Positions 7,705-43,860 of a DNA stretch of 44,807 nt are shown in pieces. Source of the stretch: Bacteroidota bacterium (GTDB taxonomy: Bacteria; Bacteroidota; Rhodothermia; Rhodothermales; Bin80); contig JAPOTS010000052.1 of the NCBI GenBank assembly GCA_026709065.1, positions 1-44,807 of the forward strand, written 5' to 3'. Within the stretch, counting starts at the first letter, position 1. Each line of letters begins with the position of its first letter. A model generated the notes under the pieces. That model saw only the letters and a list, made by a program, of their open reading frames with translations. It did not search any database and was not told the origin of the DNA. Both the position numbers and the translations under genes were made by a program.

Positions 7705-10160
7705 CGTGCTTGCTCTAAAGCTTGGATGTGTATGTCCAGTTGTTCAATAAAGTTAGCTCTTTCTTCGGGGGATGAGAATGCTTCAAATTGTCCTACGGCA
7801 CGCTCAACTCTCTTCAAGTTAATAAGATAATCAAAGATGGCATTGGTGACTCCTCGCTGACTAATGAGAGCATTCGTCTGTGCTTGAAGAAGATCAACAA
7901 CATTCACTAGTCCTTGTTCATAGGCATCAGTAACAATATCCAATGACTGGCGAGCGGTCTCAGCCGCTGATTCACTTTCGCGGACGACAGCCAAACTAGT
8001 CGCGGCAAATTGAAGCTGAGCGCGAAGATTCTGTTCTATCCCTCGGGACGCTAATTCACGTTGAAGCTGCAATTGAATGAGTCTGGACTTGGATTGATTA
8101 CGCCGTGCATATCGGGCGTTTCCTTGAAAAAGAGGTAGACTCACTGAGACACCTGCTGACCATGGAAAATTAGGAGATTCGGTTGCAGGAAAACCAGTAG
8201 AGGGGGCTTCACTTCCAGCCCCTTCACGTAGGAGATTAGTTGACAAATTGCCCTGAAGTGCAACCGACGGAAGATAAAACGTTTGACGTGTAGACGATAC
8301 GATAAACTCTTGAGCTGCAATGGCAGCATCAAGGCTCCGAATTTCTGGGGAAGCATTAATTGCAACCTCTGATAAGAAGTTCGCCAGTATATTAAATCTG
8401 GATATCTCGGAGAGGTAAGTCGTAGACAGGCTGCCTTCAAGGAGAGCGCGTCCCTCTAAGTCAGATTCTGGTGTAGTGAATGGTTCATTAAGAGGTCGAT
8501 TAAGAATTTGGTTCAGAGCCGTTTCAGCAACAGAGCGTTGAGCAAAAGCCGAGATTCTGTCAGCCCGTCGTCTGGATAATTCACTCGTGAGTCGGAGACG
8601 TTCGCCAGGCCCGGCCGTTCCAATCCGCTCTCTCTGCTCAGCCATTTGTAATGAAGTGAGAGTGAGTTCAAGATTGTCTTGTTGCACTTGCTCAAGGGTT
8701 TTCGTTCGCAAGAGATTTAGATACGCTTCGGCTGCCTGTAGTACCACATCAAGTTCAACGGTTTCCCGAGATTGCTCTCTGGATTGCTGAAGAGATTTCT
8801 GAGCAGATAAGTTGGCATTTGCTCCAGGAGAATACAGCAATTGCTGAAAGGTGAGACGGCTATCAACCGAATGCTGCGGTTGCATGCCAAAGGATGATTC
8901 GGCCACCTCTTTAGAGACGGTGGTTCCTGTCCCTGCAATCTCCAACTGAGGAAGTAGCCCCGAACGTGCAATTCTTACATCTTCTAATCCTACAGCGACT
9001 ACTTGATCCTCTATGGCTAATTCCAAATTAGCCATGCGCGCCTCTTCCATCACGCTTAGGAGCGTGACAGAGCGCTGTATATTCTCTGGGGTTTCAAAGA
9101 GTCTACGCGCATCTAGTGCAAGATTCAGTGGAGGCACAATCGACAGGCTATTGAGTGTGCGCATATTGATCACTAAATCTTCATTTGTGGGGAAGGTTAC
9201 AGGGATTTGACTTGGGTCATCACCAAGAAGGATTCTGTAGATATTGAGTGCGACCCTTCTCGAAAATTGCTGCACATTGATGGATTCAAGTGAGGCGGCA
9301 ATCCCTTTCTCAACATCAGTAGCCGTATAAGAAAATGATGGTAGTCCACGCGCGGTAAGCGCCTGTGCAAGGCGCTGAAATTCATTGATATTCAATTGAG
9401 GTAATGGAGTCAGGTAGACTGCATCAATATCGTCACTCATCTGCTCAAGGGTACCAGAAGTAGTTGCGCCGACAGGTACAGGCACCAGCACAATGTCTTG
9501 CTCTAAGGCAGATTCGACAACATGATTAATAAAGGCTTCGTATGTGATAATCAATACCTCGTCAATCAACAGAGCAACCTTTTCAAAATAGCTAAGCTCA
9601 CGAAATTTGAGTAGATCCCTGATGATTGAACCAGATGGCGGGGCAATATAGGTGAGGTTCTCCACTCCACTTGTACCGTTAGTTTCTGGAAATCCCTGAA
9701 ATGCCGCATCAAAGATACCCCCAGCAATGACGGGTTTTGGCCATGGAGCCCCACGGACTGCAATATCGGATGCAATGATTCCTAAGGTCACGATCATTGT
9801 AACCTCCTCGTCTACCATCAACTCCAGAAGCGCACCCTGTACATCGCTAGATGTGATAAATTGAATATTGGGAAACGAAACACTGAATTCGTCTCGCACG
9901 AGCATCCCTAATTCCTGTTGAGTTAGGTCTCTTATTTCTGTTGCCAATGCGTTGGCAGAATCAGCGATAAATGCAATATGAGATGTAGGAGTTTCAATCT
10001 CTAATTCCTGCGCCTTAACATTGATGACTACAAGGCAGAGCAAGAAGGTGGTCCACACAGTTCGGATGTGCTCAGCCGTCTGATGAATTTTGAAAAAATT
10101 CATTGATAGTGTGAATTTACTTTTGGATTGTGGGATAGAATCTATGGAATCAGTCCGCAT
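7701..10160 (-). CDS. TolC-type outer-membrane efflux protein fused to an ABC_sub_bind-like domain
   Basis: An 819-residue protein with two parts. Residues about 58-345 look like a periplasmic binding protein of the ABC_sub_bind type (Pfam PF04392): HIAFIADSA opens the first Rossmann-like lobe, with a second lobe containing VYLTPLPQLNINEFQ and GLPSFSYTATDVEKGIAAS. Residues about 380-800 are a TolC family channel with two repeats of long Gln/Ala/Leu/Arg-rich helices, each followed by a beta-strand pair; the second reads SAGVSVSLPLFQGN and the last helices include YEQGLVNVVDLLQAQT. Residues 1-50 carry a long n-region and a hydrophobic core ending in VKA before QELE, a likely signal peptide. The ATG at 10160 has a good Shine-Dalgarno AAGGAG eight bases upstream; an internal Met20 is an alternative. 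It is first in the operon and should form the channel for the pump. TolC proteins are normally near 450 residues, so the fused sensor-like lobe is unusual. Confidence 0.88.
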   Translation of the reverse strand: MRTDSIDSIPQSKSKFTLSMNFFKIHQTAEHIRTVWTTFLLCLVVINVKAQELEIETPTSHIAFIADSANALATEIRDLTQQELGMLVRDEFSVSFPNIQFITSSDVQGALLELMVDEEVTMIVTLGIIASDIAVRGAPWPKPVIAGGIFDAAFQGFPETNGTSGVENLTYIAPPSGSIIRDLLKFRELSYFEKVALLIDEVLIITYEAFINHVVESALEQDIVLVPVPVGATTSGTLEQMSDDIDAVYLTPLPQLNINEFQRLAQALTARGLPSFSYTATDVEKGIAASLESINVQQFSRRVALNIYRILLGDDPSQIPVTFPTNEDLVINMRTLNSLSIVPPLNLALDARRLFETPENIQRSVTLLSVMEEARMANLELAIEDQVVAVGLEDVRIARSGLLPQLEIAGTGTTVSKEVAESSFGMQPQHSVDSRLTFQQLLYSPGANANLSAQKSLQQSREQSRETVELDVVLQAAEAYLNLLRTKTLEQVQQDNLELTLTSLQMAEQRERIGTAGPGERLRLTSELSRRRADRISAFAQRSVAETALNQILNRPLNEPFTTPESDLEGRALLEGSLSTTYLSEISRFNILANFLSEVAINASPEIRSLDAAIAAQEFIVSSTRQTFYLPSVALQGNLSTNLLREGAGSEAPSTGFPATESPNFPWSAGVSVSLPLFQGNARYARRNQSKSRLIQLQLQRELASRGIEQNLRAQLQFAATSLAVVRESESAAETARQSLDIVTDAYEQGLVNVVDLLQAQTNALISQRGVTNAIFDYLINLKRVERAVGQFEAFSSPEERANFIEQLDIHIQALEQAR

Positions 10161-31796: not shown

Positions 31797-33189
31797 AGGT
31801 CTTTTTGGCTTCTTAATCCATGGTGTGAGAAGGTGGATACTGTTCTATGATACGCTTGATGAAAATGCGTAATGATCGTAAATGTTAATGAAACGTTCCT
31901 TACCATTAATATATACGTATCCAAATAGATTGTATTGACACTGAATCTGCCAGCTTAAAAGTATGAGTATTATTGGCTTTGAATATTTCACCATTAACCG
32001 ATAGATATGCATATCATAATGGAGTTACAGAATGCGTAACAAAACATCATGCCCCAAGTCAGCGGCCGCATTTGTACAGGTGAACGCATGTATAGGTGTT
32101 GATCAGTTACATTTTTCATATTAGTCCTCCACTGAAAGGATGAGGAAAATCAAACCGAAGGCTTGTGATTTCGTTAACGGAGTCAGATAGGAATAATATA
32201 AATTGAACTCTGTGAGCAGAGCGCCATTTTCCGGGCAAAACAGATGGATTGCAATGAATGAGTGTACTGATCTGAATATTTCTCAGTCGAGTTTGAAATT
32301 CGATATTCGGGGGAGTGCATTCTACTTATTGTTCTCAATAAAAGATATGTACATTTTTGGATTAAGAGAATCTCGATAGTCTTAGCTCTGAAAGCAGATT
32401 GAGATAAAGAGATTGATATGTCATTGACTCATTGAGTTTCCAAGTTCAGTGAAAATTGATTCAGTAATCGGTCATTCTACAGACTTAGCTTCTTGGGTCT
32501 CATCAAATCTTCCAATTATACAGTGACAGCTCCTTTAAGTAGTTCTATCAAGAATCTGTAGGTAGAGACCCAGACTATCACGAATGAAGATAATAGCAAG
32601 TCTGAAATTATAAATTTAGTTAACCTCACCTAGTTGATTTGATATTTGGAACTTTCGGTCATTTTCTCCGCTTTTGCGTTGGATGAGGATCATCTGATGC
32701 TGGCAGATGGTTTGGAATAGATACAGCACCTTTTTCCATATCTGTTGCATGAATTTATGATCTACTGATTTTTTGCAGTGCACCTCTACATACCCTACAT
32801 ATTCAGTAATCCATTTCAGATTGAAGGTCACTATTTCTTAGTGAGCTGCTGTGGATGTTAATTCGGAGGAAAAACGAAAAAAGGAACCGCCTTTAATCAT
32901 AGATTATGGATGATATTTTGATAGGGATTGAATTGTTGAGAAAAATTGTGCGTGCATATTCATTTCGGAGAATGGGAGGCATATTGGTGGAAGAAACTTA
33001 ATTAATAATCCTTGAACATCAGCATAACCTCTGCAAAGACATTTGATATTTATTGCACACTCCCTTAATGAAAGTAATCAAGAATACCAAGGAGTGCTAG
33101 AAAGTTTAAGGGTTCTAACAGTATAGAAAACGTAATCATCCCGATTAAATAAATATAAGACCAGATTGATTGGACAATATTTTGTGGGA
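31797..33189. other. Large gene-poor interval
   Basis: Almost 1.4 kb without a recognisable gene. It is AT-rich, with many stops in all six frames. A 71-codon minus-strand frame at 32616-32831 has a Lys/Gln-rich composition and no motif. The left part must hold the promoter of the SLC13 gene; the right part lies beyond the last gene of the seven-gene cluster. I see no CRISPR, tRNA or clear terminator. Confidence 0.4.
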
Positions 33190-34563
33190 CTATACAAGCC
33201 AATGCAGGCTGACAATCAACGATGCTAAGAGTCCGATGAATGCGAAGGAAGGATTGATCAAATTTGCGCGGAGCGGAGGCCCATATATTCGCTTGGTCAG
33301 TGGAAGAAAGATCATGGAAGCAACACTGATTGCTAATAATCCGATCCCAAGAACAGGCAGAAGTTCCATCACATCCGGCGTGGATACAATCATATCTCTC
33401 AGGTAAATATCTGGATTAAAGGCAATCAGCAATGTCGGAAGGTAGACGAAAGCCCAGCCTATTCCAATTGCTCCAAGTATTCGAATCAATCGATTTCCCA
33501 GTGTAGGCTGAAGTGTTACTCTTGAGATACCGTATAGTGTGAGCTGTGAAGCAAAAGTCATGGCAAACGGAATCAGGAACCAATCCTTCCCATCAATCGC
33601 ATAGAGAAACAACCATAATAGTGCACCACTAGTAATTGAAAGCATCGTATACACCGAGTGTGATCGGCGGTCAGTGGAACGAGGCCAGAGTGCCACATAA
33701 AGGATAAAGAACCCGAGGGGAGCGATCAACCAGGGCCAGCCACCCAGAGTAAACGTAGCATAGCCGAAGAGTGAGCAACCGACCAATGCACTGTCATCAA
33801 GCTTACTTCGACGACGCCATGCCAGTGTAAATGCGATTAACACAATGGCAATCATCAAATGAAAAAGAAGTAGCTGTGCGTCTTCTCCAAGGTAGAGCCG
33901 CAAAAAAGCATGAGTGCTGAGAGGAACGAATATATTGTCCAACCCCCGCCATGATATGAGCTCTAGCATCATGACCAACAGAGCGAGAATGGCTGCAATC
34001 AGAATAGACTCAAGTCGCCCCGTGTCGGTAAAGAGCAAAAGAGGAAGGTGAGTGCTGAAAAATGTAACAAGAAAAAAAGCCAGAGAGCCCTCAACACTTT
34101 TTATTCCCTCCGATGTCTGGTATTGCATTTGACCATAGCGTATACCAATCACGGCTGCCGCGGTATCCGCCAAGGACATTGTCAGGACCGGAACCACATA
34201 GAGCAACCATTGACCTTGGCTGATCAGAAATAGAATTACAACCGAGATCACAAAGTAAATTTCCCCGAGGGTGTTGCGCTGTACCCCTCCCATAATGGTT
34301 CCAATACTCCTGCGCATACTGGGGATCAGCCGAGCAGAAACCAGAGTAGCACCAATTAGCCCCCCTGCTATAATCACAGGTAAGGCATCATCAAAGATCC
34401 ATGGCAACGGTAATGCGAACAGCCCTGAACAAACATGAACGGCTTTGCGAAGGATTTCTTGATGCACATTCCATCTCTTTTCAATAATCTTTAGTCCGGC
34501 CAAGAGCAGGGCAAACATGCCGAGAATGACCAATATCGGTAAGAGTGGAAACGCGGTACTCAT
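33190..34563 (-). CDS. Dolichol/phytol-kinase-like membrane protein with extra C-terminal membrane domain
   Basis: A 457-residue integral membrane protein with about a dozen hydrophobic segments. The first 210 residues match the CTP-dependent polyprenol/phytol/diacylglycerol kinase family (Sec59/VTE5/Dgk1): RKAVHVCSG at 39-47, a helix with LADTAAAVIGIRYG containing Asp133, and KSVEGS at 155-160 are the three hallmark motifs. Such enzymes phosphorylate a lipid alcohol with CTP. The remaining 245 residues add six or more helices that I do not recognise. It is last in the seven-gene run and overlaps the DUF3419 gene by one base (TGATG). In this context a prenyl alcohol or lipid glycerol is a sensible substrate, but this is inference. 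Confidence 0.78.
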   Translation of the reverse strand: MSTAFPLLPILVILGMFALLLAGLKIIEKRWNVHQEILRKAVHVCSGLFALPLPWIFDDALPVIIAGGLIGATLVSARLIPSMRRSIGTIMGGVQRNTLGEIYFVISVVILFLISQGQWLLYVVPVLTMSLADTAAAVIGIRYGQMQYQTSEGIKSVEGSLAFFLVTFFSTHLPLLLFTDTGRLESILIAAILALLVMMLELISWRGLDNIFVPLSTHAFLRLYLGEDAQLLLFHLMIAIVLIAFTLAWRRRSKLDDSALVGCSLFGYATFTLGGWPWLIAPLGFFILYVALWPRSTDRRSHSVYTMLSITSGALLWLFLYAIDGKDWFLIPFAMTFASQLTLYGISRVTLQPTLGNRLIRILGAIGIGWAFVYLPTLLIAFNPDIYLRDMIVSTPDVMELLPVLGIGLLAISVASMIFLPLTKRIYGPPLRANLINPSFAFIGLLASLIVSLHWLV

Positions 34564-35699
34564 CAGACATGCGTGTCCGCTACTGGAACGCTGTCGGTTC
34601 CGCTTGCGACAGTCTCAACAATAAAGCGACTGTAGAAAAATGCTTTATCTTGAAGATGAAGTTTTTCGGCAAGTTCTTGGTTAGGAATGAGTCTATGCGC
34701 TAATTCTTCGGGGCGGCTACGAGGTACCAACATATTCCAATATGCGAATCGAGCCCCATCTGTGGAGTGAGTAATTAGCTTTGAAAGTAACTCGTGGAAG
34801 TAGTCGTCAGACATGTATTCAAAAATGTCACTTAGATTATGACAGTCAATCCGTAAGTCGGGTTCGGATTCAAGAAGTTCTTCAATAGATAAACAGTGCC
34901 ATTCAAGCCTGTCAAGATTCTTTTTGATGACATCAAAATTTTCTGGCCTGAGCGCGTGTGGTAAAGCAGTAGGATGATGTCCAGTGAGAATCCATTGAAG
35001 ATAGGGGTTAGTGGTAGGGTCAAGCTCAATCAATGCATGCTTTGCCCGGGCAAGGATACGATCCGAAACGGATCCCTCAACATAGCGGAAAAACTCAGGA
35101 TCTCGCCCCATTCGGCCCATAAAAAATCGGGAGAAGAAAATTCGGAAAAGAAGTTTCCATCGCCTGTTGGCCCAGTGGCGGGAATAAAAGATGCTACGTT
35201 CTTCTTTAGTTCCACCTGAAAGGAGTTGCTCAACCCTGTGGCGAGAATGAATCCAGGGGAGTACTTTCCTCCGAAAAAGTGCAAAGTAATCCTCAAATTT
35301 GCCTGCACTACCAATTCCAGCACGAATTGACTCCAGACGGGCATCCCAGAAATTTCGTGCATCAGGGTCAAGAACATCACGACAGCGGCGATAGAGACTT
35401 TCCCGGTCACTACACTCCCAAGAACCAATCAGTTGCAGAAGTTCCTTATGATCAAGTGTTCGGTAGGCTGCAACGCGAAGCGACAGGCAGGCTAGTTGAG
35501 CCGGATTCATATCTACGGCAATCACACGTGCAGGATTTTGGGTAAGAAGAGAGAGTGAGTTCTCTCCAGCCGAGGCAATAGAAAGGCAGACATCGCCTTC
35601 ACGAACATTGAGTGCCTCAAGGAGAATGTCGGCATCCTCCCAGCATTGGGCATAACGCACAAATGAAAAATCGGCTCGGTCTGCTGCTTCAGTTGTCAT
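34563..35699 (-). CDS. BtaA-like (DUF3419) SAM 3-amino-3-carboxypropyl transferase
   Basis: A 378-residue protein of the DUF3419/BtaA family, in which S-adenosylmethionine supplies a 3-amino-3-carboxypropyl group; BtaA places it on diacylglycerol in betaine-lipid synthesis. Visible landmarks are FVRYAQCWEDADILLEAL near the N-terminus, the SAM-binding Rossmann strand LSIASAGENSLSLL followed by VIAVDMNPAQ, a central aromatic and Arg-rich region with FFSRFFMGRMGRDPEF, and the C-terminal NLSDIFEYMS that is diagnostic of BtaA-like proteins. The partner N-methyltransferase BtaB is not in the window. The gene overlaps its upstream neighbour by 4 bases and its downstream one by 1. The acceptor may not be diacylglycerol here. 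Confidence 0.82.
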   Translation of the reverse strand: MTTEAADRADFSFVRYAQCWEDADILLEALNVREGDVCLSIASAGENSLSLLTQNPARVIAVDMNPAQLACLSLRVAAYRTLDHKELLQLIGSWECSDRESLYRRCRDVLDPDARNFWDARLESIRAGIGSAGKFEDYFALFRRKVLPWIHSRHRVEQLLSGGTKEERSIFYSRHWANRRWKLLFRIFFSRFFMGRMGRDPEFFRYVEGSVSDRILARAKHALIELDPTTNPYLQWILTGHHPTALPHALRPENFDVIKKNLDRLEWHCLSIEELLESEPDLRIDCHNLSDIFEYMSDDYFHELLSKLITHSTDGARFAYWNMLVPRSRPEELAHRLIPNQELAEKLHLQDKAFFYSRFIVETVASGTDSVPVADTHV

Positions 35700-38401
35700 T
35701 GGTCATTTGCAGGTTTTGAGTCCATATCCGATTCAATATTCAGGCTCACTACGCCTTTTGCACCATCCATTTCAACCAAGTCGCCTGTCTTGAGTCGTGA
35801 CGTAACCATCGGGAGTGAGACGATGGCCGGAATTCCCATTTCACGGGCTACGATCGCCGAATGTGAGAGAAGGCTTCCCCGTTCAACAAGAATACCAGCA
35901 GCAGCAGGAAACAGCATGATCCACCCTGGGTCGGTGCGTTCTGCAACCAGAATTTCACCTTGTTGTAACTCGGCTCCTCTCGGATCACGGATAACACGCA
36001 CTTGACCCCGCACAATTCCTGGGCAGCACCCAATACCTTGGAGTCTATCTGATCCCGCACCTTCATCATCTTCTGAAAATGACGCTGTCTTTGATTCGTA
36101 GCGATTTGCAATGTAAGGGGACCCGAAGGTTTCAAAACGTTCGGCCGGGGGATCCATTTCGGCATAACCCTCAAATGCAGTGCGACGAACTGCTGCTAAA
36201 CCACGCAAATCCTGACTTGATGCAGCTCCTTCGGTATAAGAGAGGATTTCGTTAATATCTAGATAAAATACATCTCTTGGGTCATCCAATATTCCTTCGG
36301 CAAAATATCTCTTCCCAACTTCAAGGAAGATACGCCGTACGCGTCCGAAGAGGCGAGTACGCTCAAATCTCAGATTTTCACGGTCACGAACGCGATTGCG
36401 GGCATTGCGAAGCACCCATGCAAAAATAGATCGCCTCAGTGGGTTGTACCCCAACGATGTTCGTACCTTTTTCTCTGCATCTTTGCGAACATCTGACGAG
36501 ATGTCGGTTCCAAATATTTGCCCTTGTGCAAGTCTGGATGCAGCGTGCCCTATAGACCGGATTAATGGTGCAGGATCGTCAAAAAGTGTCGTGGATTCAA
36601 GTTTCAGCTCATCTAAACACCGATCCCCGAATTTGTTAACATATTCGTCGTATAAACGGGATAATTCCTCGTGAGAACGTAACGTCAGCAGGGCCGTCTC
36701 GATTGGCCGATCACAAAGAGCATCTACTAAATCTTTATGTGGAGCCGCCAATTGCGCCATCTCAACGATACGCTTGGCAGGCTCTGCGCTGATCATCCCT
36801 CCCTGATTACACACCAAATTATTTTGTAGAGAACTTTGTTCGTCTTCTTCCTTTGAGCACCATTTCGACGTGAGCCGACCAAGTACTCCGAAGAAAATCA
36901 TTGCAAAAAAATCATTGATCAGTGGTGCATCCCAGCGTGTCAGGAGGGTTCGTTCCAATGTTCGATAATCACCGATCAACTGATCAAGGCGACGGAATTC
37001 AAGAGCTGGATCAGGTGGAAGTAGAGCTTTATTGAGGCGGTCATAGAATCGGTCAATCATATGAGGAAGCCGAGCTTGATTGACCACCATCCCTGCTACA
37101 GTTCGGATCAACCGAAACAGATCAATTAGCTTTGCAGATCGAGTAGAATTGGATGCCAACTTCGTGATTTCCTCGGGAAGACTTTCTCTTACTCCCATCA
37201 TCTGCTCCATGAAACGCTGATTAAACGTATATCCTGGAAGGAGTGCAATGAGACGATACCAGTTCAAAAGGTTGTAATAGATCCGGCCTTGGATCAAACC
37301 GAGCATCCTCCTAAATACCATATCATTGGCCTCAATACTGGCTTTGGGTACCCCTAATAGACGGCAGAACTCACGGTATACCCCCTCATAGGCGTACAGT
37401 GCATAACTAAATGTGAGTGGGGTTGTAATTCCACTGTAGCTCTCTACAATATTGGAATTGTCCCAAATGGCGTGAAGACCATCAGGATCTGGAACTGTCG
37501 TTAGAGAAGTGATAGGTCTTGATTGGAGCAAGTAGAATTCTCCACCACGTATTGACCATTCAATGTCTTGGGGCCGACCAAAATGTAGTTCTGTGCGATG
37601 TGCGAGTTCGGCTATCTTGGTTACCTGTTCATCGGTAAGTGCGGGCTCAGAAGCTGCAGGTTCAACGACTTCCTGTGCAACAAAACCATCACGGAATTTG
37701 GGATCCGGACGGTGCGCTAATATCTTCGCCACAATATCCCGCTCCAAGATCGTTCCATCAAAATGAACACGCCAAGTATCAGCATCGGCATCCCCGCCGA
37801 CTAACGCAGTCCCTAAGCCACGCAACCCAGATACGATAGTCACAGAGCGCTGCCCGGTCACTGGATCAGCACTGAATGCAACCCCGGAAACTTCACTGTC
37901 TACCATGGTCTGCACCAACACAGCGGGTGCTTGGGGTAATCCTTGAAGTTGATTTTCGCGGCGATAGGCCAACAAACGTTCGTTAAATCCAGATCTCCAA
38001 ACATCAATGATTCGTGCCTGTAAATTCTCACGAGTGACAAATAGAAAGCTGTCAAACTGTCCAGCAAAGGAGTGCTCTATACCGTCTTCCTGTACTCCTG
38101 ATGAACGTACTGCAACATAGGAATTTTCATCACTGAGCACACCAATTTGCAACTCTACTTGCTCCAATAGATTAGGATTCAGTATGATCTCATCAAATAT
38201 GGACTGGATTTCGTTTTGGGTTGTCGCCTGAATTAGGTTTTGCTGTTGAGCTGGGGAGAGGCTGGCTTCAAAGGCCTCTGGTACGATAACAAACCACGGG
38301 GGAATTTTTAATCCAGTATCAGCCAATGCAGACAGGGCTCCTGCCTTGCCACCCATTTTTCTGGAATCTGCACCATCTAATGCTGTCAGGACATACGTCA
38401 T
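35696..38401 (-). CDS. PEP-synthase-like phosphotransferase lacking the PEP-binding barrel
   Basis: A 901-residue enzyme from the ATP at 38401. It contains the PPDK/PEP-synthase N-terminal ATP-grasp domain (about 1-310) with VRSSGVQEDGIEHSFAGQFDSF and PQDIEWSIRGGEFYLLQSRP, and at the C-terminus the mobile PEP-utilising domain with catalytic His847 in GSLLSHSAIVAREMGIPAI. The central 450 residues are alpha-helical and do not show the PEP/pyruvate TIM-barrel signatures; this matches the plan of rifampin phosphotransferase and other small-molecule dikinases, in which the middle binds the acceptor. The frame is open 20 codons further upstream, but the ATG at 38401 overlaps the UbiA stop by 4 bases (ATGA) and gives the standard family beginning. 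Likely role: ATP-driven phosphorylation of a pathway intermediate. Confidence 0.82.
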   Translation of the reverse strand: MTYVLTALDGADSRKMGGKAGALSALADTGLKIPPWFVIVPEAFEASLSPAQQQNLIQATTQNEIQSIFDEIILNPNLLEQVELQIGVLSDENSYVAVRSSGVQEDGIEHSFAGQFDSFLFVTRENLQARIIDVWRSGFNERLLAYRRENQLQGLPQAPAVLVQTMVDSEVSGVAFSADPVTGQRSVTIVSGLRGLGTALVGGDADADTWRVHFDGTILERDIVAKILAHRPDPKFRDGFVAQEVVEPAASEPALTDEQVTKIAELAHRTELHFGRPQDIEWSIRGGEFYLLQSRPITSLTTVPDPDGLHAIWDNSNIVESYSGITTPLTFSYALYAYEGVYREFCRLLGVPKASIEANDMVFRRMLGLIQGRIYYNLLNWYRLIALLPGYTFNQRFMEQMMGVRESLPEEITKLASNSTRSAKLIDLFRLIRTVAGMVVNQARLPHMIDRFYDRLNKALLPPDPALEFRRLDQLIGDYRTLERTLLTRWDAPLINDFFAMIFFGVLGRLTSKWCSKEEDEQSSLQNNLVCNQGGMISAEPAKRIVEMAQLAAPHKDLVDALCDRPIETALLTLRSHEELSRLYDEYVNKFGDRCLDELKLESTTLFDDPAPLIRSIGHAASRLAQGQIFGTDISSDVRKDAEKKVRTSLGYNPLRRSIFAWVLRNARNRVRDRENLRFERTRLFGRVRRIFLEVGKRYFAEGILDDPRDVFYLDINEILSYTEGAASSQDLRGLAAVRRTAFEGYAEMDPPAERFETFGSPYIANRYESKTASFSEDDEGAGSDRLQGIGCCPGIVRGQVRVIRDPRGAELQQGEILVAERTDPGWIMLFPAAAGILVERGSLLSHSAIVAREMGIPAIVSLPMVTSRLKTGDLVEMDGAKGVVSLNIESDMDSKPANDQ

Positions 38402-39333
38402 ATCAATTCTCTCCAAATCAGTGGAAGTAGCCCAAGACTCATGTAGAGGACCAATGTCCAAGCCCCCGAATATAGTTCAATCCATTTGCCTGCTCCCTTG
38501 GTCTGCTGGCGCAAAAAATAAATTCCAACAACGATTGCACCGCCAAGGGTGACACTTAGAATGAACAATATCGGCAGGAAAAAATCAATCCGGTGGGCAG
38601 CGATACAGGTACAGATTAGCGCCAGCCCCATGACGATCCACCATATCATCAGCGCCTTTGGCCGTCCCCATACTACCGAATAGGTAGGAACTCCTTTCTC
38701 TTCATCCTCTGGACTCCGAATCTTGCGACCTATGTCAATACCCATACCGTTAAATAGACTTGCCAATAGAAACCAGAAGAGCCCGTCTGGGGCATGCCCT
38801 AACGAAATAAGCCACTCTGTGCCCGTCGCATAGAGATCTACAAGAGGCATGATGGCCATGTGAGTAATCAAGTATGTAAGATGTTTGCCTCGTAGCCACT
38901 TCCCTATAAAGAATTCTTTCCCCATCAAGGCCTGATAGGACCACGTAATCAATAACAGAATAAGTAGCCGGGGATCCAACCACAAAGCCAAACCTATCTG
39001 TACAATGCTACACAGCACAAAGAGAACCACCAGTTCTCGTAAAGTAACCAAGCCTCTGGGAACAGGCCGATAGGGCCTATAGCGGGCATCCTCTTCCTTA
39101 TCTTTGAACTCATCTGAAATGCGTAACTGGAAAAAGAAGAGCAGGCATGTAACAAATGCAACAACTATGGATGCAAGACTAGGCCATCCATTGGATGAGT
39201 GAAGCATCCATGAAAAAGCAACTGCACTAAAAGAGAAGGCAAAAATAACTGGGCCATGTTGAGCAAGAGGAAATCGCTCTTTCTGATAGATCCACCAGCG
39301 ACGAAGGCCTTGTTCATTTTGATGATTCGTCAT
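38398..39333 (-). CDS. UbiA-superfamily prenyltransferase
   Basis: A 311-residue membrane prenyltransferase with seven to nine hydrophobic helices. The first Asp-rich motif is SDEFKDKEED (Asp74, Asp78, Asp82) followed by RPVPRGLVTL, and the second is in DIGRKIRSPEDEEKG (Asp200 and the acidic cluster 209-211) followed by PTYSVVWG. These motifs bind Mg-diphosphate of a prenyl donor. The family includes ubiquinone, menaquinone, chlorophyll and homogentisate enzymes and archaeal digeranylgeranylglyceryl phosphate synthase. The acceptor here is unknown; the quinone-type subfamilies are not specially indicated. It overlaps the HMG-CoA reductase gene by 4 bases and the dikinase-like gene by 4 bases. 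Confidence 0.85.
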   Translation of the reverse strand: MTNHQNEQGLRRWWIYQKERFPLAQHGPVIFAFSFSAVAFSWMLHSSNGWPSLASIVVAFVTCLLFFFQLRISDEFKDKEEDARYRPYRPVPRGLVTLRELVVLFVLCSIVQIGLALWLDPRLLILLLITWSYQALMGKEFFIGKWLRGKHLTYLITHMAIMPLVDLYATGTEWLISLGHAPDGLFWFLLASLFNGMGIDIGRKIRSPEDEEKGVPTYSVVWGRPKALMIWWIVMGLALICTCIAAHRIDFFLPILFILSVTLGGAIVVGIYFLRQQTKGAGKWIELYSGAWTLVLYMSLGLLPLIWRELI

Positions 39334-40619
39334 GCTCCTTGATTGGGTCCTCGCGCCAGTGACTGATGTGCGTTCGTAAAACCATGTGATGAAAGTGCGG
39401 CAGAGATGGATAGTTCACCCGCCAACACCAGTGCGGCACATACTTCGGCTAACGCCGAGGCATTACCTGCTCCTTTCAGTTGGAGAATGTCAAGACAGGC
39501 ACTCTGACTTGGTAGTCCAGTTCCTCCCCCAACCGTACCCACAATGAGATTAGGGAGAGTGACAGACGCATAAAGGGAGTCCCCGTCAGTGCGCTCCATT
39601 CGGGTTATGCCCACCGAGGACTCAGCTACACAAGCGGCATCTTGACCGCAAGCAATAAAGAGAGCTGCCATTCCATTGGCATAATGCCCCTGTAGCCCAA
39701 TATTACCGCTCATGACTCCACCTATGACCCCGGCTTGATAATAATCCATCATCTTACTTGCAGATGTTTTTAGATGATTTTTCAATATTTCGGGAGGGAG
39801 TGTAACTTCTGCAGTGACTTTTTTCCCACGTACATTTTGAAAGGACATATAGGATGCCTTCTTGTCTCCCGAGTGATTGGCTTCAACGAACCAGTATGCG
39901 GGCTGGACGGGTGACTTTTCAAGGATATGGCGGCAAATCGCATCGGTTGCGATAGTGACCATGTTTTGTCCAGAAGCATCCCCTGTAATAAATTCAAAAA
40001 TAAGGTACACATGATTGCCTTCCAGATTGAAGCAAGTCCGTAGCAGTTGACCATGCCTAGTGGTGGATGCGGCGATGTCCTTGAATGAGTCTGCCTGCTC
40101 ACTGGCCCATCCCATAAACTTCCCGACCTCAACTAAATTATCAAAGATAAAAACCGGGGCTCGCGTGACTCCCTCCCACATCATGGCTACGGTAGCCCCA
40201 CCTGCCTTTGTGATTGACTGAGCCCCCCGAGAATAAGAGGCCACTAGCGCAGCTTCTGATGTAGCAAGTGGTACATAATAATCTCCGTTGGCAAAAAGCC
40301 CGCGTACCCGCAGAGGTCCAGCTAATCCAACAGGGACTTTTACGGTGCCAATGAAGTTCTCAATATTATTGCAGTAGGCATTCATCTGCTCACGCGTCAT
40401 GGGATCAAGCAGTTGATGCTTTGCAGACTCATTCGCATCCAGAATGTCCCATCGACGATCCGATTCTTCTGGTGAAATCGTTCCAGGTGCATCCCCACGA
40501 GGGACACTTGGAGGCATATCCTCCTGTGAGGGTAGTAAACTCTGCTCTATTTCTTGCAGAGTGCGTTTTTCAAAAAGACGCCGGAAGAAGCTCCGGACAC
40601 CGCGAAGATCAGCTGACAT
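39330..40619 (-). CDS. Class I-like HMG-CoA reductase
   Basis: A 429-residue soluble 3-hydroxy-3-methylglutaryl-CoA reductase, which makes mevalonate with two reducing equivalents. The class I features are ENFIGTVKVPVGLAGPL near 87-103, LATSEAALVASYSRGA (Glu122), the NADPH loop TGDASGQNMV (212-221), RGKKVTAEV (Lys266), CGQDAACVAESS (Asp327), VGTVGGGTGLPSQSACL, and the C-terminal His418 in NAHQSLAR. All four catalytic residues are therefore present. There is no membrane anchor, as expected in prokaryotes. The first 50 residues are variable. No other mevalonate-pathway gene is in the window. Its start overlaps the ligase stop by 11 bases and its stop overlaps UbiA by 4. Confidence 0.9.
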   Translation of the reverse strand: MSADLRGVRSFFRRLFEKRTLQEIEQSLLPSQEDMPPSVPRGDAPGTISPEESDRRWDILDANESAKHQLLDPMTREQMNAYCNNIENFIGTVKVPVGLAGPLRVRGLFANGDYYVPLATSEAALVASYSRGAQSITKAGGATVAMMWEGVTRAPVFIFDNLVEVGKFMGWASEQADSFKDIAASTTRHGQLLRTCFNLEGNHVYLIFEFITGDASGQNMVTIATDAICRHILEKSPVQPAYWFVEANHSGDKKASYMSFQNVRGKKVTAEVTLPPEILKNHLKTSASKMMDYYQAGVIGGVMSGNIGLQGHYANGMAALFIACGQDAACVAESSVGITRMERTDGDSLYASVTLPNLIVGTVGGGTGLPSQSACLDILQLKGAGNASALAEVCAALVLAGELSISAALSSHGFTNAHQSLARGPNQGA

Positions 40620-42210
40620 GTCGTTTAAGTTTTATTTTGAGTGAAGTATAGTCTATTTTCGCATTATGACGGCGATCCACAGGGATTCTACGAACCCTGA
40701 TAATTCGATCTATATGCGCCCATGAAAGGGTAGTAAATATTTGTTGATCCACATCCGCAGGAGCATGTGATTTCAATTGTATAGCGAGCAAGCGTTCTCC
40801 ATGGAGGCTTGCCAGAGCACTCCGTTTGATAAAGTGCAATTGGCTCGCTGCACATTCTACTGCGAAGGGGTAAGCGACACCATGCTCATCTTGAATAATT
40901 GCACCAGCACGACCTAAAAGCCACAGTCGTCCATGCGGATCAAGATAGCCAGTATCACCGGTTCGATGCCATATTTGATCGTTAACTCGGAATTTGGTCT
41001 CTTCATCGCCGACACCGTTGAGATAACCGGGGAGAACATGATGGCCATGAACGACGATTTCACCTGGATGCGCTGATGGGAGTTCTACTCCAGCAAATTC
41101 TTGCGTGTTCATGGCTGGCAAGGGTGTGCCCCATTGGTTGCTGACAATCTTAAGTTGGATCTGATTCACAGGCATTCCGACGAGTAGTCCTTTTCCTGCA
41201 TACATGGAAGCTCGGTCGTGATCACTTGCCGCGTCCCAGTTGAGGTGTGAAATAGGCTCGGCTTCCGTAGAACCATAAACGACGATCACATCTCCTTTAG
41301 GCATAGCTGCTTGAAGTTTTTGCAAGAGTGGAGGGAAAACGGGAGCACCTCCAGTATAGAGTTTCTGAAGTGAGGCAAGTCCCAAATCTTTTGTCCCATT
41401 TCTTTTTCTCGCATGAGCTCCTTCAAGCAATCTGTCATACAGAGCTGGAGACCCGATGGTCCTAGTTACTTGATGGCGGTCAATCTGTTGAAGTACAGGT
41501 TCTGGTTCAATGAAACCGGGTTGCCGTAGGTCACACTTGGGGATGACCGAGGTCACTCCCGAAGCTAGATTGGCCAGTACAAAGATTGGCAGGGCAGGCA
41601 GGTCAATTTCACGAGGCATCAAATCTATAGACGCGGCCAAAACATCATGTTGTGCCCGAAGAAAGCCATGGGTTCGGACGGCTGCTTTGGGGGTTCCAGT
41701 GCTCCCGCTGGTAAACGTGAGTAAAGCATCGTGAGATGGCGGACAGGGTGTGATTGCGTTTAATGGGTCAAGCCGTTCAAGTTTGGTCCAACGAATGGCA
41801 AAGGGAGCCCATACAGAAGTCACTATATGGTGCTCAATTTGGCGCAAACCTCTGATGAGAAAACGTAGAAGATGTGCTCGCGCGGGGCCTAAGAAGGCCT
41901 TTGGACGAGCGATTTTACAACATTGTTCAATGTGCTTAAATCCAGCCGAAGGATCAAGTACAGTGGCAACGAGACCAAGTCGGAAAATACCAAGGAGTGC
42001 CACATAAAGCTCAATTGAAACTGGTTGAAAGAGAAGAATTCGATCCCCCTTGGACAATCCTGACATACGAAGCAGTGTAGCAGCTCTAGCGGATCGATCT
42101 GCTAGTTGGGCAAAGGTCACTGCACGAGTATTTTCATCGACTCCCTCAATAATAGCAGATTGATCTGGTCGCTTGGCAGTTTGCGAAGTCAGGATATGAC
42201 AGATATTCAT
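40609..42210 (-). CDS. AMP-forming ligase, OleC-like
   Basis: A 533-residue ANL-superfamily adenylate-forming enzyme. Core motifs are LLTFTSGSTGTPKAAVRTHG (P-loop 167-175), VYGSTEAEPI (A5), and WHRTGDTGYLDPHGRLWLLGR (A7-A8). The C-terminal lysine, which completes the adenylation, is Lys518 in VDRRHNAKID, a signature shared with OleC-type olefin beta-lactone synthetases and related fatty acyl-AMP ligases. It would activate a carboxylic acid or beta-hydroxy acid with ATP. The ATG overlaps the upstream GNAT stop by 4 bases, and the stop lies inside the HMG-CoA reductase start. Because OleA, OleB and OleD are not here, hydrocarbon synthesis is not implied. Confidence 0.85.
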   Translation of the reverse strand: MNICHILTSQTAKRPDQSAIIEGVDENTRAVTFAQLADRSARAATLLRMSGLSKGDRILLFQPVSIELYVALLGIFRLGLVATVLDPSAGFKHIEQCCKIARPKAFLGPARAHLLRFLIRGLRQIEHHIVTSVWAPFAIRWTKLERLDPLNAITPCPPSHDALLTFTSGSTGTPKAAVRTHGFLRAQHDVLAASIDLMPREIDLPALPIFVLANLASGVTSVIPKCDLRQPGFIEPEPVLQQIDRHQVTRTIGSPALYDRLLEGAHARKRNGTKDLGLASLQKLYTGGAPVFPPLLQKLQAAMPKGDVIVVYGSTEAEPISHLNWDAASDHDRASMYAGKGLLVGMPVNQIQLKIVSNQWGTPLPAMNTQEFAGVELPSAHPGEIVVHGHHVLPGYLNGVGDEETKFRVNDQIWHRTGDTGYLDPHGRLWLLGRAGAIIQDEHGVAYPFAVECAASQLHFIKRSALASLHGERLLAIQLKSHAPADVDQQIFTTLSWAHIDRIIRVRRIPVDRRHNAKIDYTSLKIKLKRHVS

Positions 42211-43202
42211 CCTGACAAAGTCATCTCGTAGAGGGTATATTCGCGGATAGTTGTCCCGTAGTGGTTTGATATTCTACGAGATAAATTCTCCTCTTGCATC
42301 AGTGCTGCAATCGCTTGATCAAACCCTAATTTTGATGCTGACCTTTGAACATAGTCCATAAGAATTCCACCTATTCCTTTTCCCCCGTAATCTGGATGCA
42401 CTGCCATAGTCTTGATAATCACGGATTTGGTGGATAGAATGTCTTTCGGATCAAGCAGATTTGGAATGGCAAAAATGAAGCCAATGAGGCGGTTTTCGTG
42501 CTCCATCAAAATAACCAATTCGGGGATTATATGTATGCGAATTGGCAAGTACAAAGTTAAAAATTCCTTCAATGGAATGGGGCTATAGAGGAAATTTTGC
42601 TTAAATGCAACTAGGCATAGTTCGTGGATCGCGGCCAGTTCCTCTTCAAAGCGTACCATATTGACTGTCCTCATCGTAATTCCATTACGTTCCAATTCTT
42701 TCAGACGCGCATCGGATCGTGGGTCAACTTTTTTTAGATTTTGATTGATCGTGGAGGTGTATGTAGAGAGGGGGGTGAATCCTGCCTCAGAAAAATGAGA
42801 TGGCCAATCATCTGGATTGTCGGGCTCCAAAAAGAACATAGGCTCCAACCCACGTTTAGTCACAAGCCTGTATCGATGCCATGTAGACTTATCTATCGGG
42901 CCGATGATCCGTTTATGGCCTTTTTGACGATGTAGCTCTGAGGCATGCGACAGGAGTAATGCACCATCATTAATAGTAGTAGCTGCATAGTGTCCGAGGA
43001 TTCCTTCGGCCATTGGTGCACCTTCGGAGTCAAGACGGTCCCACAGTGAACATCGGGCGATCACGGCACCGACATCGTCATGAATGACCAAGTGCAACGA
43101 TGGATTAGTGAGACGAAAAACATGGCTCTCCAGTGGTTTGACCAATCCCTCTTCTAGCCATAGCAAGTCTTCAATTTCTTCAATGATTGAAAAGTATATC
43201 AT
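42207..43202 (-). CDS. GNAT-family N-acyltransferase-like protein
   Basis: A 331-residue protein of the GCN5-related acyltransferase fold. The acyl-CoA pyrophosphate loop is in IKTMAVHPDYGGKGIGGIL (core GGKGIG at 273-278). The N-terminal 150 residues may hold a second, degenerate GNAT half, as the HHFR-like spacing IIGPIDKSTWHRYR and an acidic patch fit a duplicated fold. The substrate is unknown; in this position it may acylate an amino group produced by the pathway. It is the first gene of the seven-gene run. The ATG at 43202 is taken as the start since a candidate promoter lies just upstream. A 4-base overlap joins it to the ligase. Confidence 0.78.
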   Translation of the reverse strand: MIYFSIIEEIEDLLWLEEGLVKPLESHVFRLTNPSLHLVIHDDVGAVIARCSLWDRLDSEGAPMAEGILGHYAATTINDGALLLSHASELHRQKGHKRIIGPIDKSTWHRYRLVTKRGLEPMFFLEPDNPDDWPSHFSEAGFTPLSTYTSTINQNLKKVDPRSDARLKELERNGITMRTVNMVRFEEELAAIHELCLVAFKQNFLYSPIPLKEFLTLYLPIRIHIIPELVILMEHENRLIGFIFAIPNLLDPKDILSTKSVIIKTMAVHPDYGGKGIGGILMDYVQRSASKLGFDQAIAALMQEENLSRRISNHYGTTIREYTLYEMTLSG

Positions 43203-43359: not shown

Positions 43360-43860
43360 TCAGGACGAGCCATTAAGCGTCTTCTTAAGGATGATTGAGC
43401 AGTCATTTTCAGGTATCTGACGAACACCGCGTCTATCACTCAGAGGAATAATGATCGCACCAGATACAGTTATTGCTGCACTAATTACTATAAGGGATTT
43501 ACTAAAACCAAGAAGACCTAATAAGAAAAACGGCGATCCAGCAGCAGCACCAAAAAGTATGCCGGTTACAATATCTCCCCCTAAAACTGCAGGATTGACT
43601 ACGGGAGTGAGATCACAGGTTTCATCCGTGTACCCCTGCTTTGAGAACCTAATAGATGATGGCTCCCGGTTACTGATGTCAAGCGTCATGGGAGTTAACC
43701 CTACTTCGGTAGAATCAATCCAGACAGTCGCGGAACTGGGGATAGTATTGAGAGTAATTGTTTTGGTCTCTGGTAGCAGTAGGTGTCCGCATCCAGTGGT
43801 GAGAGTAAGGAAGCAGACAGTTATACAAGACGTAATTGAGCGAATTCGGATATGAAACAT
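43360..43860 (-). CDS. PEGA-domain lipoprotein
   Basis: A 166-residue putative lipoprotein. The signal has lipobox LTTGC, so Cys24 should be lipidated. Residues about 36-75 form a PEGA module (LNTIPSSATVWIDSTEVGLTPMTLDI, then a basic strand with IRFSKQGYTDE), a surface-layer-like domain of about 40 residues. Residues 90-145 hold two hydrophobic stretches rich in Gly and Ala, so the protein may be held in a membrane as well. It is separated from the GNAT gene by about 150 bases on the same strand. The function is not known. Confidence 0.75.
   Translation of the reverse strand: MFHIRIRSITSCITVCFLTLTTGCGHLLLPETKTITLNTIPSSATVWIDSTEVGLTPMTLDISNREPSSIRFSKQGYTDETCDLTPVVNPAVLGGDIVTGILFGAAAGSPFFLLGLLGFSKSLIVISAAITVSGAIIIPLSDRRGVRQIPENDCSIILKKTLNGSS

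Follow-up and report, generated by a model that had tools for sequence, protein, structure and literature searches.

A conserved seven-gene unit with an altered HMG-CoA reductase homologue and a proposed amino-lipid pathway in Rhodothermales

Introduction

3-Hydroxy-3-methylglutaryl-CoA (HMG-CoA) reductase (HMGR) is among the best-studied enzymes in medicine, and a homologue of it is encoded within a run of seven genes at positions 33190-43202 of the stretch of DNA analysed here (the window: 44,807 nucleotides of contig JAPOTS010000052.1, assembly GCA_026709065.1, from a Bacteroidota bacterium of the order Rhodothermales). The locus raises the question of whether this homologue supplies mevalonate, as the preliminary description of the window had proposed for a set of enzymes making a modified isoprenoid lipid, or whether it acts in a pathway of another kind. 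The same run encodes a GNAT N-acyltransferase-like protein, an acyl ligase, a UbiA-superfamily transferase, a pyruvate phosphate dikinase (PPDK)-like enzyme, a DUF3419 protein and a phytol-kinase-like (PhyK-like) membrane protein (Table 1). The reading favoured here is that the seven genes form one lipid-type biosynthetic pathway which does not make mevalonate and which probably builds an undescribed amino-lipid; for the scheme in full, our confidence is evenly balanced. Loci and genomes used for comparison are designated L and G.

Conservation of the gene set

All seven genes occur together in 18 loci, 17 in genomes of the window's phylum, where the unit is spread over many genera, and one on a plasmid of Roseinatronobacter (Alphaproteobacteria). 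These complete loci (the window, L041-L045, L062 with L068, L063, L064, L065, L098, L100-L104, L106 with L110, and L108) belong to a total of 26 cluster loci of all types, the further eight being L066, L067, L105, L107, L109, L122 and two that are cut by contig ends (L097 and L099). A search with the window HMGR homologue matched 52 of 114 genomes of the order, and in six of them (the window's and five others, 6 of the 16 in its family) the homologue, 70-100% identical, adjoins the other genes, with the order and strand of all seven kept in every one of the six loci. The flanks vary within the family: L042 and L043 share one, the window and L041 share upstream genes, and L044 and L045 lie elsewhere.

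A UbiA profile applied at E 1e-12 found 10 of 395 genomes sampled from the phylum, five in the window's family and five outside it, the latter all with partner genes in the same locus. The PPDK model NF004881 found 11 of the 395 at E 1e-120 and, at E 1e-150, 11 of 298 genomes in the order of G170 (eight complete loci, two cut by contig ends and one variant). In the class of G242 that threshold gave 5 of 197, of which two are complete and three are variants. G067 alone among the phylum matches carries an orphan gene (L080:8728-11460, 42% identical to the window protein), the rest of the cluster being absent from the 20 kb read there. A scan of the contigs of named genomes added one locus, L004. 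Among the plasmids of PLSDB a single record, from Roseinatronobacter sp. S2, holds the set, with UbiA, PPDK-like, DUF3419, PhyK, GNAT and AMP ligase genes consecutive and the HMGR gene spanning the record start; 11 other plasmid matches of DUF3419 were just 25.6-33.8% identical, and the UbiA of L066 had no match among the plasmids.

Outside the window's family the GNAT and ligase genes mostly follow PhyK, L106 with L110 and L108 are reshuffled, and a START-like gene is added in 8 of the 18 complete loci. Across 13 deep loci, pairwise distances in the six families other than GNAT correlate between families with r 0.47-0.79, values which include no control for common descent and into which the plasmid PPDK-like and HMGR proteins entered as fragments. 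The window genes are under purifying selection, with dN/dS of 0.06-0.17 against L041 and L042 in 12 of 14 comparisons, dS being saturated in the other two.

It is considered highly probable that the seven genes constitute one pathway. The preliminary description had treated them as one unit, and this has held: in other genomes the families are found not in random combinations but kept together, in 18 loci that differ in flanks and in gene order, an outcome that favours a unit. No description of the gene set was found in the open-access literature, a search that did not cover subscription journals and preprints.

An HMG-CoA reductase homologue with an altered substrate pocket

Aligned with human HMGR, the cluster homologues keep E559, K691, D767 and H866 in 20 of 20 sequences covering each site. 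The substrate pocket is altered: S684 is replaced by Glu, M655 by Ala or Ser and M657 by Gln in all 20 (DAMGMN becoming DA[AS]GQN), and none has Lys at the K735 column. The window protein itself has E246 at the position of human S684 and DASGQN in place of DAMGMN, and it likewise lacks a Lys at the K735 column. In the canonical enzyme Lys735 holds the HMG carboxylate. PMC3875450 describes Ser684 as a pocket residue of HMGR and Lys735 as an inhibitor contact.

HMG-CoA synthase was found in none of the 12 genomes first tested (11 cluster genomes, including the window's, and G067 with its orphan PPDK-like gene) and is missing overall from 21 of the 25 tested, and DXR is present in each of the six family members that carry the set. 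The window's genome has, in addition, a short DXR-like fragment interrupted by one stop (G000:C52:19388-19483). A control is offered by G055, G056, G077 and G076, in which a canonical HMGR (S684, K735, DAMGMN) is found beside the Glu684 type. In the first three of these genomes HMG-CoA synthase is present and DXR gave no match, a pattern resembling a change from the methylerythritol phosphate (MEP) pathway to the mevalonate pathway (L111-L113, L116-L118); in G076 neither DXR nor HMG-CoA synthase was found.

The mevalonate supply claimed in the preliminary description was therefore rejected, on the loss of HMG-binding residues, on the absence of HMG-CoA synthase (0 of the 12 first tested) and on the separate canonical HMGR of the three related genomes, with exceptions that are weighed below. 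The cluster enzyme resembles the HMG-CoA reductase of the mevalonate pathway in family and catalytic residues, but it differs from it in S684, K735 and DAMGMN and in its genomic company, and it is very likely not an HMG-CoA reductase. From its sequence, the window protein is proposed to be an acyl-thioester-to-alcohol reductase, a function for which no description was found for the HMGR family in the literature covered. If this is true, a branch of HMGR that retains catalysis with an altered pocket would represent a new family of acyl-CoA-to-alcohol reductases, and annotations reading the cluster HMGR as part of the mevalonate pathway would need correction.

HMGR genes are also found away from the clusters, and the 24 such loci that were aligned (L011-L034) are all of the Glu684/DAAGQN pocket type, with no partner gene within 1.5 kb except for weak ligase matches in two. 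Most genomes with a non-cluster Glu684 HMGR have DXR and no HMG-CoA synthase. Of the groups of open reading frames (ORFs) that recur in these GC-rich loci, one, found beside 11 of the 24 genes, probably encodes an ArsA-like ATPase.

Exchange of reductases and kinases in variant clusters

The reductase and the kinase are replaced by unrelated families in several loci. In the stretches read of L066 and L109 HMGR is absent, its place taken by an NAD_binding_4 gene (thioester/fatty-acyl reductase), beside which a YegS/DAGK-type kinase replaces PhyK and a phosphatidylserine decarboxylase (PSD)-like gene is added; the reductase and UbiA of L109 were detected with profiles built from other loci, and L107 is a relative that is cut short. 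L067 combines a thioester-type reductase with PhyK, a PSD-like gene and an MMPL gene. In L105 and L122 a single protein joins the HMGR to an APH/EcKL-type kinase domain (L105:8843-11158, 771 aa; L122:11110-13533, 807 aa), and both kinase domains exceed their Pfam cut-offs. Other genes of L122 encode ligase, DUF3419, GNAT, PPDK-like, UbiA and MMPL proteins. In L105 the match to CarS is weak (E 5.8e-4) and does not reach the cut-off, and a CDP-alcohol phosphatidyltransferase lies nearby.

In the stretches read, all 24 loci left uncut on that side pair a reductase of one of two types with a kinase of one of three: HMGR with PhyK in 19, thioester-type reductase with YegS-type kinase in two, thioester-type reductase with PhyK in one and the HMGR-APH/EcKL fusion in two, the APH type having been sought only in L105 and L122. 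This double replacement, together with the fusion, provides the best evidence that the reductase makes an alcohol which the kinase phosphorylates. A ligase gene accompanies HMGR in each of the 18 complete loci, as it does in L122, and the three uncut loci with the thioester-type reductase lack it; such a distribution is what ligase and HMGR acting one after the other would produce. Since the variants use the fatty-acyl/thioester-reductase family instead of HMGR, the chain could equally be fatty-acid derived.

Other enzymes of the unit

Six of the seven window proteins exceed their Pfam cut-offs, and for these the family labels given in the preliminary description stand, including its view of the set as lipid-type enzymes with an acyl-activating ligase among them. 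The seventh, the PhyK-like protein, has no match in Pfam or NCBIfam, even up to E 10, and its label comes from invariant residues and a fold match. The ligase falls in the PRK09274 'fatty acid CoA ligase' group (NF006754, 381 bits, cut-off 478); it is OleC-like, but direct membership of OleC was rejected, the scores on the OleC models being 219 and 217 bits against cut-offs of 850 and 900. A GNAT gene was found in every complete locus.

The PPDK-like enzyme scores 775.6 bits on NF004881, below the cut-off, and aligns along its length to RedH (residues 24-906). The swivel His (LSH motif) is kept in 24 of the 24 sequences covering it, and the ATP-grasp domain keeps a VRSS motif and the Lys of a GGK-type motif in 25 of 25. 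PPDK_N and swivel-His architecture is shared with PigC, RedH and Rph, but direct membership was rejected, the scores of 310, 349 and 296 bits reaching between roughly one quarter and one third of the curated cut-offs of 1300, 1350 and 999.

The DUF3419 protein (251.9 bits on PF11899, cut-off 28.2) had been described as a BtaA-like, S-adenosylmethionine (SAM)-dependent aminocarboxypropyl transferase, an assignment which the Pfam match supports. There are 28 columns invariant across 23 cluster homologues, and a PDB profile search of the family gave nothing useful. PMC10685587 takes a locus annotated as DUF3419 to be betaine-lipid synthase, and a role of BtaA in betaine lipid synthesis is given there and in PMC10491745. 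The unit resembles the BtaA/BtaB synthesis of the betaine lipid diacylglyceryltrimethylhomoserine (DGTS) in this transferase, but it has six other enzymes besides; a Pfam search confined to the unit's own seven genes found no BtaB-type N-methyltransferase.

The UbiA protein (PF01040, 76.3 bits, cut-off 34.2) belongs to a group whose profile finds chlorophyll a synthase (E 3.5e-5) and digeranylgeranylglyceryl phosphate (DGGGP) synthase (E 0.0071) in the PDB, both of which alkylate oxygen. An Asp-rich R-x-x-DE-x-KD motif is present in 24 of the 25 UbiA sequences examined and was not found in that of L105. The ebo cluster, according to PMC9235831, likewise includes a UbiA-family gene (EboC) in a conserved bacterial operon, but the window UbiA scores 14.4 bits on the EboC model, whose cut-off is 250.

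Alignment of 18 sequences shows 16 invariant columns in the N-terminal half of the PhyK-like protein; the C-terminal half is missing from shorter homologues of about 215-240 aa. An AlphaFold 2 model of residues 1-250 reached a mean confidence (pLDDT) of 87.8, and the full-length model, built from 6 rows (pLDDT 47.5), was not used. The best Foldseek match of the partial model is CDP-diacylglycerol (CDP-DAG) synthetase 4q2g (prob 0.99, E 0.015). With VIA-align, the first row has Z 7.9 over 170 aligned residues at a root-mean-square deviation (rmsd) of 5.9, the second is a designed protein at Z 7.6, and 5guf gives Z 5.3 (106 aligned, rmsd 3.4); because the first row barely exceeds the designed protein, the kinase fold is not called proven. 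A PDB profile search of the family gave nothing useful. The model fits a CTP-dependent lipid enzyme, either a kinase or a cytidylyltransferase, in the N-terminal half, and the name phytol kinase itself follows sequence motifs. The dolichol/phytol-kinase-like member named in the preliminary description is a probable lipid kinase, a label drawn from the invariant residues and the match to CDP-DAG synthetase. An identity of the C-terminal half with VTE6/DUF92 was considered but not adopted: of six members, just one had a match to DUF92, with E 3.5, and another hit, to DUF2339 at E 5.9e-4, likewise came from a single member.

Proposed pathway

In the proposed scheme, the AMP ligase would turn a carboxylic acid into an acyl-CoA, and the HMGR homologue would reduce the thioester to an alcohol by the four-electron chemistry of HMGR, applied to a different acyl group. 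The membrane PhyK-like kinase would then phosphorylate the alcohol, and the PPDK-like enzyme would add another phosphate or couple the intermediate with ATP. UbiA would attach the activated chain, alkyl or prenyl, to an acceptor, with oxygen as the probable site, and the DUF3419 enzyme would attach a SAM-derived 3-amino-3-carboxypropyl group in the manner of BtaA, perhaps decarboxylated where a PSD-like enzyme is present. The GNAT would acylate the new amine. We infer all of the substrates, the product and the order of the steps from the PPDK-like enzyme onwards; both a membrane lipid and a small molecule are conceivable as the product, with either a prenyl or a fatty chain. In its widest form, the proposal would be that of an undescribed, horizontally mobile type of aminolipid biosynthesis in bacteria, which combines an HMGR-derived acyl-thioester reductase, a kinase-UbiA alkylation module and a SAM-derived aminocarboxypropyl head group, and in which reductase and kinase are repeatedly exchanged; this is advanced tentatively, with somewhat less than even confidence. 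The cluster predicts an amino-lipid that has not been seen, and since the carriers include an isolate, Roseinatronobacter sp. S2 (PMC10508151), the prediction is testable by lipidomics.

Alternative explanations

A system that salvages and attaches polyprenyl alcohols (phytol or farnesol, for instance), in which the kinases would yield a prenyl diphosphate for UbiA to attach while ligase and reductase return prenyl acids to alcohols (comparable to the phytol salvage of chlorophyll and tocopherol metabolism), is judged unlikely. The UbiA superfamily normally requires an allylic diphosphate, and the fold and residues of the PhyK-like protein, as well as the UbiA profile being nearest to chlorophyll a synthase, recall the VTE5/VTE6/ChlG system with its membrane kinase-like protein. 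However, the window unit has no chlorin acceptor genes and adds a ligase, a reductase, a SAM transferase and a GNAT; salvage leaves DUF3419 and GNAT unexplained, and the fatty-acyl/thioester reductases and YegS/DAGK kinases of the variants suggest acyl lipids equally. A small-molecule natural product, with the PPDK-like enzyme as a PigC/RedH-like ATP-dependent ligase and with ligase, HMGR and GNAT building a modified acyl amide, would suit the alignment to RedH over the whole length, the patchy spread (10 of the 395 phylum genomes, 6 of 16 in the family), the changing flanks and the plasmid copy. It is judged about as unlikely as salvage, given that the RedH and PigC cut-offs are missed and that the membrane kinase, the lipid kinases and the PSD-like, START-like and MMPL proteins of the variants suggest lipids. 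The fungal siderophore route through SidI and SidF (mevalonyl-CoA ligase and GNAT) similarly brings together an HMGR product, an AMP ligase and a GNAT, but it was kept as an analogy only: the window HMGR is unlike the HMG type, and UbiA, kinase and DUF3419 have no counterpart there.

An archaeal-type ether lipid, with UbiA acting as DGGGP synthase on geranylgeranylglyceryl phosphate (GGGP), is very unlikely. DGGGP synthase is the second molecule matched by the UbiA profile in the PDB, 15 of the 24 cluster genomes have a PcrB/GGGP synthase (GGGPS) homologue, which exceeds the cut-off in 14 of them, and L105 has its CarS-like protein and phosphatidyltransferase; against this, PcrB/GGGPS is present in none of the six window-family genomes and also missing from G706, G765 and G784, and because the window's own family lacks it a GGGP-based lipid was rejected as a requirement. 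That the HMGR homologue makes mevalonate after all, from HMG-CoA arising for example in leucine breakdown, and thereby feeds UbiA, would agree with its strong Pfam match and its four conserved catalytic residues. This is highly improbable in view of the pocket change in every cluster HMGR, the canonical paralogue of G055, G056 and G077, the distribution of HMG-CoA synthase and DXR, and the substitution of a thioester-type reductase for HMGR in variants.

Several observations weigh against the non-mevalonate amino-lipid pathway preferred here. HMG-CoA synthase is present in 4 of 13 cluster genomes tested later (G698, G678, G706 and G708), and G075 and G069 have it with only a Glu684-type HMGR seen, so that this type could still make mevalonate somewhere; both facts also favour the mevalonate explanation. 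The K735 column adjoins an alignment gap. In the order, 46 other genomes match HMGR, of which one (G033) does so in a variant cluster, and since the 24 inspected non-cluster loci without partners share its pocket, the Glu684 HMGR is not specific to the pathway. The distances of GNAT correlate weakly with those of the other families (r 0.04-0.42, same 13 loci). The part of L105 that was read yielded PPDK-like and UbiA genes but none for DUF3419, GNAT or ligase. With 119.3 bits on the phosphatidylserine decarboxylase model TIGR00163, whose cut-off is 111.75, the PSD-like protein of L066 may be an ordinary enzyme of that kind. Finally, the kinase call draws on a fold match at E 0.015 and on sequence motifs, and the modelled fold would also fit a cytidylyltransferase.

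Gene layout and neighbouring features

An ORF check located all seven minus-strand ORFs and confirmed the overlaps of 1-11 bases that had been reported between them, which in transcription order are 4, 11, 4, 4, 4 and 1 bases. The longest PPDK-like ORF opens at a TTG at 38461 and would overlap the UbiA gene by 64 bases; since the L045 homologue begins at an ATG with the same 4-base overlap, the ATG at 38401 is taken as the start in the window. Junctions in the five family relatives are mostly overlapping and some are spaced, GNAT and ligase being 327 bases apart in L044 and 85 in L045. The GNAT frame of L043 (genome G004, 8049-9038) has an in-frame stop close to its start.

Table 1. The seven genes of the unit in transcription order, with positions in the window
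Feature	Position	Strand	Length (aa)	Basis
GNAT N-acyltransferase-like protein (first gene)	42207..43202	-	331	PF00583 (Acetyltransf_1) E 9.2e-9
AMP-forming acyl ligase	40609..42210	-	533	PF00501 E 8.7e-52
HMG-CoA reductase homologue, altered substrate pocket	39330..40619	-	429	PF00368 E 1e-113
UbiA-superfamily transferase	38398..39333	-	311	PF01040 E 3e-21
PPDK-like dikinase/ligase	35696..38401	-	901 (from ATG at 38401)	PF01326 (PPDK_N) E 4.1e-57; PF00391 (PEP-utilizers) E 5.9e-25
DUF3419 (BtaA-like) SAM-dependent 3-amino-3-carboxypropyl transferase	34563..35699	-	378	PF11899 E 1.6e-74
PhyK-like integral membrane protein	33190..34563	-	457	invariant residues and fold match

The interval between the unit and the next gene downstream (31797-33189), about 1.4 kb long, contains no ORF of 100 aa. 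Directly upstream of the unit, a small PEGA-domain protein is encoded at 43360-43860; by protein grouping, relatives of it are found upstream in L041, whereas the stretches read of L042-L045 have none.

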